Source: Ditylenchus dipsaci (taxonomy: Eukaryota; Nematoda; Chromadorea; Rhabditida; Anguinidae). Taken from it: a stretch of DNA of 64,000 nucleotides. The notes under the pieces are model-generated. The model was not told where the DNA came from, did not search any database, and saw only the letters and a program-made list of their open reading frames with translations. A program made the position numbers and the translations under genes. Shown in pieces: positions 40,478-43,721 of this stretch; positions within the stretch are counted from its first letter, which is position 1, and each line of letters starts with the position of its first letter. The stretch spans positions 1 to 64,000 of the forward strand of contig SADC01000014.1 of the NCBI GenBank assembly GCA_004194705.1, given 5' to 3'.

Positions 40478-40815
40478 CTGCATGTGCAATAAGCAAAATT
40501 ATAGGTATGCAGACCATAGAAAATTGACTTCTAGGTTTTGAAAAACTAAAATTTTCAATATGGAATTTAAATAAGAAAAAGGCGAAGTTTTTTTTGACAT
40601 ATTGCGAGGGGCATAGGAGCGTTTAGGCAATTTTTGGACATTTGTCCGAAAATTGCCTAAACGCCTTAACATAACGCCAAGGATTTTAAATTTTTAAAAT
40701 CATTTTCACTTTTTCCATAGTCGGGTGTATTTTTAAAGCTCTTCTATTTATTTTTAGAGTTTCTTGATCTAAAAAAGTTTTTTTATTTCCTTTCACATAT
40801 TTTTGCTTTTTTCAG

Positions 40816-41299
40816 ATAAAAGAATTTTCCTGGACTAACACTGATGTGGTCGAGAAGTTGAAGCAGCTAAAAAACAAGGAAGTGGAAACCGAAGATGTCG
40901 ATGCGTACTTCGAGCTGCAGTATAACAAGAAGTGCGTGCCTAAGACAATATTCCGACACATGCCCAAGGAAGCTGCGTTACCTCCATACCTAAGCCCAGA
41001 AGTTGTCGTGTAAGCTGTTATAAATTTTTTTATTTATTTTTCATATCGCTGTTGTGTGAAGGCCGCTAGTCTTTTGTACCTGAAAGCAATGAGAGGTATG
41101 TCAATAATTGTTTTAGATACCCTCGGTAGCTTGATGTGTTTCTAGGTGGCTTTCCTTGGCCGATAAGAAAAATGGACTGGTTGTATTCGCTTCGAACGAT
41201 GATTGCAAGGCTGCGGCTCAATGTGGGATATTGATGGCAGATGGTACTTTTGATTTGTGTCCAATAGGCTTCGCTCAGTTGTACGTGATACATGGACTT
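40816..41299 (+). pseudogene. MULE transposase N-terminal fragment
   Basis: Exon 40816-41010 follows TTTTTCAG and reads IKEFSWTNTDVVEKLKQL ... KKCVPKTIFRHMPKEAALP, then PYLSPEVVV. Exon 41146-41299 follows TTTCTAG and reads WLSLADKKNGLVVFASNDD, then ILMADGTFDLCPIGFAQLY, VIHG. The word ADGTFDLCP-x7-QLY-IHG marks the first catalytic aspartate of MULE transposases. The second aspartate, CxxH motif and final glutamate are missing. The dynein exon begins 26 bases later. Confidence 0.78.
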
Positions 41300-41325
41300 G
41301 TGATATTTGAATCCTCTGAACTTTA

Positions 41326-42472
41326 GGTTTTGAGTATTCGGGTATTCAAGAGAAGCTGGTTAAGACTCCACTAACTGATAGATGTTATTTGACAATGACT
41401 CAAGTAGGTTATTCGGTGATGGTGATAATATACAGTAACATTTTTAGGCGCTGCATTGTCGTCTAGGTGGCTCACTATTTGGTCCAGCGGGAACCGGGAA
41501 AACTGAATCAGTTAAGGCTCTGGGCCATCACCTTGGAAGATTTGTGCTAGTGTTCAACTGCGACGAGACTTTTGATTTCCAGGTTTGGAAAACGCTTCTA
41601 AACTTGTCCAAATTTTGTGTAATTATACAAATTTTCAGGCCATTGGTCGTATATTAGTGTGGTTTTGTCAAGTTGGTGCATGGGGCTGTTTTGATGAGTT
41701 CAATCGATTGGAGGAGCGAATGCTCTCAGCTGTTTCTCAACAAATCCAAACTATACAAGAATCGTGAAAGCGGGCGAGGAAATGAAGGTTGATCTGGTAG
41801 GAAAAAGGCTGTCTGTTAATTCTAATATGGCCATATTCATAGCAATGAATCCCGCTATTCCAATTCGTTGTTTTTGTGAATACGTCAATAAATTACCTCA
41901 TTACAGGCTATTCTGGACGTTCCAATTTACCTGATAATTTGAAGCAACTTTTCCGCTCGCTCGCCATGACGCAACCAGATCGAAAGCTCATTGCTGAAGT
42001 CATGGTAAATTTCTGATCCGTTTGCCGCCACATGAAACTGTAATGATGAATTTTAGCTATTCTCGCAAGGCTTCCAGACTGCTGAAACCCTTGCTAAGAA
42101 AATGTGCCATTGTTCACGTATGCCTTTTGCGGTATCTATTATGTTCTTTGTCATGTTACATAATTAGGTTGTGTAAAGAGCAGCTCTCCGATCAATACCA
42201 TTACGACTTCGGTTTGCGAGCCCTAAAATATGTCCTTGTGTCTGCGGGAAATATTAAGAGGGCCGAAATACAGCGTATTAGCAAGGATCAGCATGACAAA
42301 GGAACAAAGAGTCAAGAAAGAGATATAGCTAGTCGTTTGCCGGAACAGCAATTTTGACAATCTGTTTGTGAGACTCTTGTGCCCAAGCTGGTCTCGGAAG
42401 ACATTCTGCTTTTGTTCTCTCTCCTCCAAGACGTGTTCCCAGATGCCAAATATTGCCTTCGCCTATGAAGAT
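41326..42472 (+). pseudogene. cytoplasmic dynein heavy chain fragment (AAA1)
   Basis: Exons are at 41326-41403 ([19 protein letters not shown]), 41448-41582 ([33 protein letters not shown]), 41639 to about 41875 ([19 protein letters not shown]), 41907-42004 ([29 protein letters not shown]), 42057-42117 ([15 protein letters not shown]) and 42168-42472 ([59 protein letters not shown]). The P-loop GPAGTGKT and Walker B CFDEFNRL identify AAA1 of cytoplasmic dynein 1 heavy chain. About 330 of more than 4,500 residues are present. Frameshifts near 41766 and 42105, a missing donor near 41875 and an in-frame TGA near 42356 (PEQQF-stop-QSVCE) kill it. Retained introns show DNA-level capture, not retroposition. 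Confidence 0.9.
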
Positions 42473-42528
42473 GTAAGCTTACCCATATCGTAAAAGATGA
42501 CTGATAGTTATGATTGCCGTTATTTCAG

Positions 42529-42618
42529 TTGAAGACTCCTCTGGTGTCAGGGCTTACTTCGATTATCCGCTACAAGAACAGCCACTTTGATGTTGTGCGC
42601 CAAAGAAAGAGAAAATGA
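42529..42618 (+). CDS. terminal exon of the chimeric transcript (unknown)
   Basis: After TATTTCAG the frame reads LKTPLVSGLTSIIRYKNSH, FDVVRQRKRK and stops at 42618. It joins in phase with IAFAYED at the end of the previous exon (a different frame from dynein). It does not resemble dynein beyond AAA1 and could be the original C-terminus of the MULE protein or another captured piece. AATAAA follows at about 42686. No gene is visible from 42700 to 43440 apart from the nested element. Confidence 0.4.
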   Translation: MKTPLVSGLTSIIRYKNSHFDVVRQRKRK

Positions 42619-42944
42619 AAAAACCAAAAGTTAAGAAATGTTGTTGTTGAACTGTTTTCCAAGCTGTTATTGGTTCGAAGTCGAATAAAGTTTGAAATGT
42701 TTAGTGAGTCTTTTAAAATTAAAGTGTCTAGTACATGAGAATGTAAAAAAATTACGGTGCAACCACCTATAGAAAACGGAAAGTGAAAGCTGTCTAATTC
42801 ATATCCGTCTAAAATATTGCTCTCATGTTTTTTAGTCTTATGTTACTCAGTTTTTAAAATCACATATTTTTCCTCATTGGGTGAGCCAAATATCTAAGGA
42901 GTAAGAAAACAACGTCAATCAATATGCAGCATATACCGTATTTT

Positions 42945-43165
42945 CTCTAATAACTCACCCTCCCCCTCAACTTTGTTGACTCATATCCCAGCCGACAGAA
43001 AATGTTTTGCAAAGCTGTTTGTTGCGTTTTCTTAACTTTCGCAAGCTGTACCGATTCCACTTTTAGATTTTGGTTGAGCACGGAAAGTCTCGAGATTGAG
43101 TTCGAGTGAGTTCTTTCGAGGATCTAAAAAATAACTCACTCGGGTGAGTTATTACAGGAAATACG
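42945..43165. mobile_element. MITE with CCGTATTTTCTCTAATAACT ends
   Basis: The left end is CCGTATTTTCTCTAATAACT and the right end GAGTTATTACAGGAAATACG. Similar ends occur at 24940-25082, 46781-47036 and 47421-47752, so this is a repeat family. Here it is nested in the Pack-MULE-like element. Confidence 0.65.
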
Positions 43166-43721
43166 GACATTCGTCGAATGGGACACTTGTCCAAAAATTG
43201 CCTAAACCTCGGGCAAAAAATTAAAAGTTAGTCAAATCGATTGTCAGCCCATTTGGAATGTATTGCAGCCCTGATGTTCTTAACATGTTTTGTCGATATC
43301 AAAAGGATCAAACAGAATATTTGACCTCACAATAAAGGTTCACACCCACCTAGAGCCGACATAAACTTGAAGTACACATAGAGAGCCAAAAAAAAGAAGA
43401 GCTAAATACGTGAAAAATAACCCGACTATATAAAAGTAATAATGAATTTAAAAATTTAAAATCCTTGGCATTATGATAAGGCGTTTAGGCAATTTTGGGA
43501 CATTTGTCCAAAAATTGCCTAAACGCCTACGCACCATTGCGAGGTACTCCAAGAGTTTTAGAACATTTTGAACGCTTATGGCATGCCCACAATTCATATG
43601 ACGTAAACCGTGTTTTTGACCACAATAGGCTTTGGTCATAAAGACCCGCAATTCTCGACGATCCGAAACGAGTAATTTCAATATTTTGCATTATCACGTA
43701 GCCAGGATCACAGCTTGCTAT

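Follow-up and report, generated by a model that had tools for sequence, protein, structure and literature searches.

In a stretch of 64,000 nucleotides of a Ditylenchus dipsaci contig (hereafter the window), we identified a multicopy animal Pack-MULE, a composite Mutator-like element that carries a multi-exon fragment of a cytoplasmic dynein-1 heavy chain gene and that has transposed as a unit. Many composite copies, their different target site duplications, an empty site and relatives devoid of dynein lead to this identification. The donor of the fragment was a functional dynein-1 gene long separated from the gene resident in this assembly on contig C810 (dS ~0.4), and not that gene itself. 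As the best explanation of the whole we propose, with a probability of roughly two in three, a non-autonomous composite Pack-MULE formed by one capture from this diverged donor, with horizontal entry as the likeliest route. Pack-MULEs are well known in plants and almost unknown in animals. The present case is a young one, and a single assembly provides its junctions and recombinants, an empty site and relatives that lack dynein.

Structure of the element and of its dynein block

As presented in Table 1, the element is enclosed by a perfect 9-bp target site duplication and both of its boundaries are common to other copies. The inverted ends (40619-40713 and 43432-43526) are 92% complementary over 95 nt, with a weak extension to 134 bp at 84%. 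A perfect 9-bp duplication and ends of about 90 bp had been noticed in a preliminary description of this DNA, and both hold, as does the location given there, upstream of a mesh-like gene, which is a NIDO gene on the minus strand. Within the transposon 5' part, a transposase exon runs up to about 41299 (...DGTFDLCPIGFAQLYVIHGL); the 3' part includes, besides a nested MITE-like repeat (~42936-43166), the end repeat once more as a solo inner copy (43179-43207). A genome search with the left flank of the window element (530 bp) matched only this flank itself.

Table 1. Features of the composite element (window positions)
Feature	Position	Strand	Basis
Target site duplication, left, ATTGCGAGG	40601..40609	.	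flank comparison
Composite Mutator-like element, 2,926 bp	40610..43535	+	boundaries matching other copies
Left terminal inverted repeat; 22-bp fold-back within	40610..40713	+	inverted pairs
Transposon 5' part; lacks L025 positions 458-992	40714..41308	+	match to L025 1-457 and 993-1232; junction
Captured dynein-1 heavy chain gene block	41309..42454	+	edges good to a few bases
Dynein exon 1	41327..41403	+	
Dynein exon 2, P-loop GPAGTGKT	41448..41582	+	
Dynein exon 3; one base missing inside in the window copy	41639..41854	+	
Dynein exon 4	41907..42004	+	
Dynein exon 5; one base missing in the window copy	42057..42117	+	
Dynein exon 6, truncated at the right breakpoint	42168..42454	+	
Transposon 3' part	42455..43431	+	match to relatives
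Right terminal inverted repeat	43432..43535	-	inverted pairs
Target site duplication, right, ATTGCGAGG	43536..43544	.	flank comparison

The captured block measures about 1,150 bp, its edges being good to a few bases. It begins with the last ~20 bp of a preceding intron and comprises five complete exons, 287 bp from the start of a sixth exon and five introns of ~44-56 bp each. Six exons of the dynein AAA1 region, introns included, had been proposed: the region and the retention of introns stand, and the sixth exon proved to be truncated rather than whole. The translated block matches AAA_6 (PF12774, E 5.8e-47), the first AAA site of dynein in Pfam, and the closest PDB match of the corresponding stretch of the C810 gene is cytoplasmic dynein 1 heavy chain 1. 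The five block introns are found at the same positions as in C810, all GT..AG, so that the capture took place at the DNA level, as had been suggested. In the window copy, the 5' splice site after exon 3 reads CT instead of GT. Exon 6 bears a frameshifting 2-bp deletion in 8/8 of the composites that cover it. The dynein cargo is probably without function, and would represent a passive piece that now decays neutrally.

Copies, junctions and dynein-free relatives

When the genome was searched with the block only, each of the 11 candidates was scored and each gave a match, namely nine composites, the C810 dynein gene and a 77-bp match in a dynein-2-like gene on C1245. The composites are distributed over eight contigs (the window, C1177, C1340, C1348, C122, two on C312, C218 and C1269), the last two contigs holding part of the block only. 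Perfect 9-bp duplications, all different, flank seven of the nine (ATTGCGAGG, TAATTTTGA, TAACTTCTC, TAGCTTTTC, GTTTGGAAC, TGAGATATA and GAGAAATCA). Composite L012 has eight shared flanking bases. Composite L013 has unlike flanks and is a mosaic, its left half resembling one of the two subgroups described below and its right half and right flank resembling L014. Among other family members, the duplication was perfect in 7/11, two of these seven being one duplicated locus (L021 and L022, which share their duplication), for an overall 14/20 elements examined with 9/9 identity. Since the family search scored the best 40 of 3,227 candidates, the family counts are lower bounds; 19 regions with family members were read in sequence, together with the C810 gene region, and the members on C1252, C1268, C1182, C1324, C305, C1251, C1125, C1250, C499, C186, C177, C398 and C189 lie outside the regions read. 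The possibility raised earlier that the ends and the 9-bp repeat would be peculiar to this locus is thus answered by their recurrence in the genome.

For the C1177 copy, we observed a paralogous empty site ~105 kb away on the same contig, where the joined flanks agree at 387/393 aligned positions (98%), the 9-mer occurs once and the element is absent. A full empty site was obtained for this one of the four complete junctions tested: the C1348 junction matched MITE-like repeat copies running up to 28 bp past the junction, and for the window and C1340 junctions no empty site was present among the best 40 of 4,244 candidates. The empty site and the different duplications of the copies confirm the proposal that the element moved as a unit.

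The left junction is identical in the 8/8 composites that keep this part, the ninth lacking it, and the right junction is identical in 9/9; this common pair of junctions therefore indicates one capture. At the left breakpoint an apparent transposase intron is joined to the end of a dynein intron, and the right breakpoint interrupts dynein exon 6 on one side and, on the other, a late exon of the relative. The right junction also presents GCC plus three extra bases, which is only suggestive of microhomology.

Three relatives of ~3.4 kb (L024, L025 and L027) have no dynein. The composite matches L025 at positions 1-457, 993-1232, 2730-3298 and 3299-3483, and the dynein block sits where L025 has 1232-2730, an interval that has been replaced, relative to a dynein-free element of ~3.4 kb, by about 1,150 bp of genomic dynein-1 DNA. 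L025 is not the exact progenitor because the composite is without 535 bp of it (458-992) and because 334 bp of the composite near its right end (window 43018-43351) are absent from L025 and present in L017-L019. No exact dynein-free progenitor was found among the dynein-free elements read; their difference from the backbone of the composites is 4-11%. With the recurrent composites and their duplications, the absence of dynein from these relatives bears out the designation as a Pack-MULE-like element.

The MULE fragment of the window gave no Pfam match when used alone. The joined exons of a dynein-free relative matched PF10551 (MULE) with E values of 0.0021-0.0063, below the curated cut-off, and no transposase homologue was retrieved at E<=0.001 among 1,992 candidates in the protein collection. 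The Mutator-like assignment is well supported by the combination of 9-bp duplications, long ends and the weak PF10551 match, and not by sequence alone. Animal MULEs with an OTU protease are known as Phantom; an OTU-looking stretch (PNGHCFYG...HFSAVYED) had no OTU match in Pfam.

Two subgroups of composites were compared, one with the window copy, L009, L010, L011 and L015 and the other with L012, L014 and L016. They are separated by 76 fixed differences over 1,768 backbone positions versus one in the dynein block (L013 being counted with the second subgroup for the block), and element positions 642 to 2031, within which the block lies, contain no fixed backbone difference. Since the subgroups differ in their backbones and hardly in the block, recombination or template switching has transferred the block between the two backbones. 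Recombination among copies could also make the backbone divergence look too small; the nonsynonymous bound given below is independent of it.

Divergence from the resident gene and source of the donor

The preliminary description had left room for the exons to belong to a full-length dynein gene at this locus. The full gene lies elsewhere, on contig C810, where it reads as dynein-1 over 17.5 kb once joined, with frames broken by one-base indels; these look like assembly errors because such indels are seen in the composites too. Comparison of C810:9000-26500 with the elements gave matches only in the dynein block and in an abundant MITE-like repeat (75-84%), so that the closest gene copy is located elsewhere and without a flanking element. 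C810 is unlikely to be a contamination: one of its repeats recurs at ~97% on many other contigs, among them the composite-bearing C1177, and a MITE-like repeat in it is 86-98% like copies on other contigs.

Over 287 codons (4 skipped for gaps), comparison of the majority consensus of the composites with C810 yielded 61 synonymous changes against 7 nonsynonymous ones, which corresponds to dS 0.40, dN 0.011 and dN/dS 0.026. Fourfold sites differ at 35/127 (JC 0.34, bootstrap 0.24-0.48) and introns at 53/252 positions (21%). Under neutral decay since capture from C810, with the copy unconstrained for half of the divergence, ~117 nonsynonymous changes would be expected versus the 7 seen (Poisson P for 7 or fewer ~7e-41). 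Residence in the transposon before amplification amounts to at most ~2% substitutions per site (95%), and both of these tests assume independent sites and equal rates. Since amplification, 11 synonymous and 62 nonsynonymous changes have accumulated in the copies (shared variants being entered once per copy), a pattern not different from neutral (P 0.16). Because the silent divergence is large and the protein change almost nil, the donor was a gene other than C810, and the earlier idea of a capture from the host's own dynein gene has to be given up in favor of a different functional donor. Judging from the same substitutions, the capture is recent. With C810 excluded as the direct donor, we have no parental copy in the same genome. 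Such a copy is usual in the described Pack-MULE cases, though not strictly defining, and the present element departs from them here.

The silent divergence points to horizontal transfer from another nematode as the likeliest route, a step for which we consider the chances about even. The element, once broken, would have captured its dynein fragment in that nematode through repair or template switching, and would then have entered the present genome. The one capture was followed by repeated cut-and-paste moves with 9-bp duplications, the multiplication after entry possibly depending on transposase supplied in trans by dynein-free relatives. The full sequence of events, in which a Mutator-like element captured a dynein-1 fragment in one nematode, crossed species and multiplied to at least nine copies, the cargo then switching backbones by recombination, has slightly less than even chances and is advanced tentatively. 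If the donor was another species, the captured host DNA labels the previous host of the transposon, and the origin of a horizontal transposon transfer, which as a rule cannot be traced, becomes open to direct testing.

A donor within the same lineage would make horizontal transfer unnecessary. It could have been a second dynein-1 gene (paralogous, hybrid-derived or introgressed), since lost or unassembled, and we regard this as the most serious alternative, though an unlikely one. Searches with the block, with a 98-aa joined exon translation and with 2.4 kb downstream of the block on C810, in which every candidate was scored, brought up no second intact dynein-1 gene, nor did a search with 8 kb upstream of the block among its best 40 of 5,091 candidates, mostly repeats. 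This last search uncovered on C946 a decayed dynein-1 relic (79% and 74% identity, pN 0.148, pS 0.23, five in-frame stops), showing that the lineage once had a duplicate. However, its decay is ancient, and the donor was still under constraint no more than ~2% ago; having decayed long before the capture, the relic is rejected as the donor. Three weak inverted pairs are present around it, none of them flanking. The assembly is imperfect, its many one-base indels in coding DNA denoting a modest quality, and a gene could be missing from it. Against a polyploid or uncollapsed hybrid assembly, the dynein-2-like gene on C1245, presumably a true dynein-2, is single copy (its five remaining matches being composite fragments of 72-77 bp), and the PF00562 family is present at three loci only. 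Three RNA polymerase second-subunit genes (PF00562) are expected. Since the genes of these two families, a small sample, are not duplicated, a duplicated or uncollapsed hybrid assembly seems unlikely. The dynein-2 gene is itself no candidate source, its similarity to the block being limited to 77 bp at 77%. A weak dynein-like match was also seen on C1160 (41% over 49 aa). The nematode spliced leader SL1 (22 nt) occurs in 58 perfect copies in the assembly, which marks the host as a nematode, and a reversed control gave none.

Far less probable are two explanations that keep C810 or its lineage as the donor. No intact dynein-1 gene other than C810 was found, and C810 aligns to the whole block at 87%, as a capture from it with later divergence would have it; nevertheless, a decaying copy cannot gather 61 synonymous changes without protein changes, and the substitution pattern, above all the deficit of nonsynonymous changes, rejects this gene as the donor. 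An old capture from the C810 lineage, with the fragment kept as useful cargo under purifying selection in the transposon until recently, would fit the low dN/dS before amplification. This is equally improbable in view of the exon 6 frameshift common to the composites, the absence of constraint since amplification and backbones so much closer to the dynein-free relatives than the introns are to C810. Finally, a chance or assembly artefact, with a dynein pseudogene amid unrelated transposons, finds some ground in the frequent indel errors and is refuted by independent copies, the same structure occurring on eight contigs with different duplications and an empty site.

Relation to known gene-carrying transposons

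Tan et al. 2021 (PMC8277862) describe 370 Pack-TIRs from 100 animal genomes, four of them multicopy; none of the reference genomes yielded a Pack-MULE, and a single family of this kind came from Drosophila populations. Animal Pack-MULEs are therefore rare, as had been supposed, but were already reported with this family, Ssk-FB4 of Drosophila melanogaster. Like the present element, Ssk-FB4 is described as non-autonomous, with genic DNA including introns, 9-10-bp duplications and several loci with different duplications; unlike it, Ssk-FB4 took its cargo from the host itself, as a nearly complete Ssk gene, whereas here an internal dynein-1 fragment in nine copies comes from a non-resident donor. 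Among titles in the open-licence literature, none matched a captured dynein in a transposon, a Pack-MULE or Pack-TIR with horizontal transfer, or a nematode Mutator capture.

The Tm1 Mutator/Foldback elements of root-knot nematodes share 8-10-bp (mostly 9-bp) duplications, complex inverted ends and autonomous and non-autonomous members, and their authors suggest that the histone-hairpin members may have acquired host sequence (PMC3169594). Their end motifs are different, and a multi-exon gene fragment is not described in the text available for that study. For the proposed route, transposon-borne transport of host gene DNA from one nematode species to another is likewise described for Mavericks, with the wosp and krma genes (Widen, as told in PMC10680173). 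These elements are virus-like and encode many proteins, in contrast to the present one, which is small, moves by cut-and-paste and holds a broken piece of a gene, and whose transfer is putative. Helitrons are reported both to capture gene fragments and to move between species (PMC6544945). Plant Pack-MULEs, as described in the accessible part of PMC8277862, resemble the present element in their MULE ends, target duplications and captured gene fragments, about a third of them being multicopy; here the host is an animal, the fragment is larger than the 305 bp quoted in that paper, and the proposed donor is foreign.

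Duplication and probable recombination among family members

L013, one of the two composites on contig C312, combines sequence from two composite subgroups in a mosaic. Its two flanks are unlike, and its right flank is common to L013 and L014, the second composite on that contig. Taken together, these observations point to ectopic recombination between copies. The short family members L021 and L022, located about 98 kb apart on C217, have one target duplication in common and therefore arose by segmental duplication, not by separate insertions.

Among the 40 of 3,227 candidates that were scored, four distant family members (C1252, C1268, C1182 and C305) were 94-98% identical to the query over positions 469-708, a transposase exon region, compared to 73-85% elsewhere. 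In a fifth, C1251, the match was confined to positions 469-708, within the same 94-98% range. The difference in identity between this region and the remainder suggests that the transposase exon region may have been exchanged between subfamilies.

Features in and around the composite

The mapped features are presented in the table below.

Positions of the features and their domain matches
Feature	Location	Strand	Domain match
Mesh-like gene pieces	window 30038-38285	minus	NIDO, E 1.6e-5; VWD, weak
MITE-like repeat nested in composite	window 42936-43166		
Tc5/pogo-like transposon	window 48979-50690	minus	DDE_1, E 2.2e-14
MULE transposase domain, second Mutator-like element	window 61990-62955	minus	PF10551, E 1.1e-9, clear match
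Decayed dynein-1 gene relic, introns present	L060 2256-3302 (C946)		

We took an open stretch that ends at 38285 for the most upstream exon of the mesh-like gene, although a Pfam search of this stretch gave no match. The composite lies about 2.3 kb past 38285. The dynein-1 relic consists of two pieces, joined through a deletion.

Other transposons and repeats

A second Mutator-like element occupies roughly 61-64 kb of the window, and copies of about 95% identity were observed on C1137 and C325. In the Tc5/pogo-like transposon, HTH_Tnp_Tc5 (E 1.9e-4) was narrowly below its cut-off. The MITE-like repeat is related (75-84%) to C810:26085-26240, an abundant repeat close to the resident dynein gene. 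The region C409:50373-59730 is a tandem spliced-leader array, with SL1 copies spaced mostly about 1,167 bp apart.
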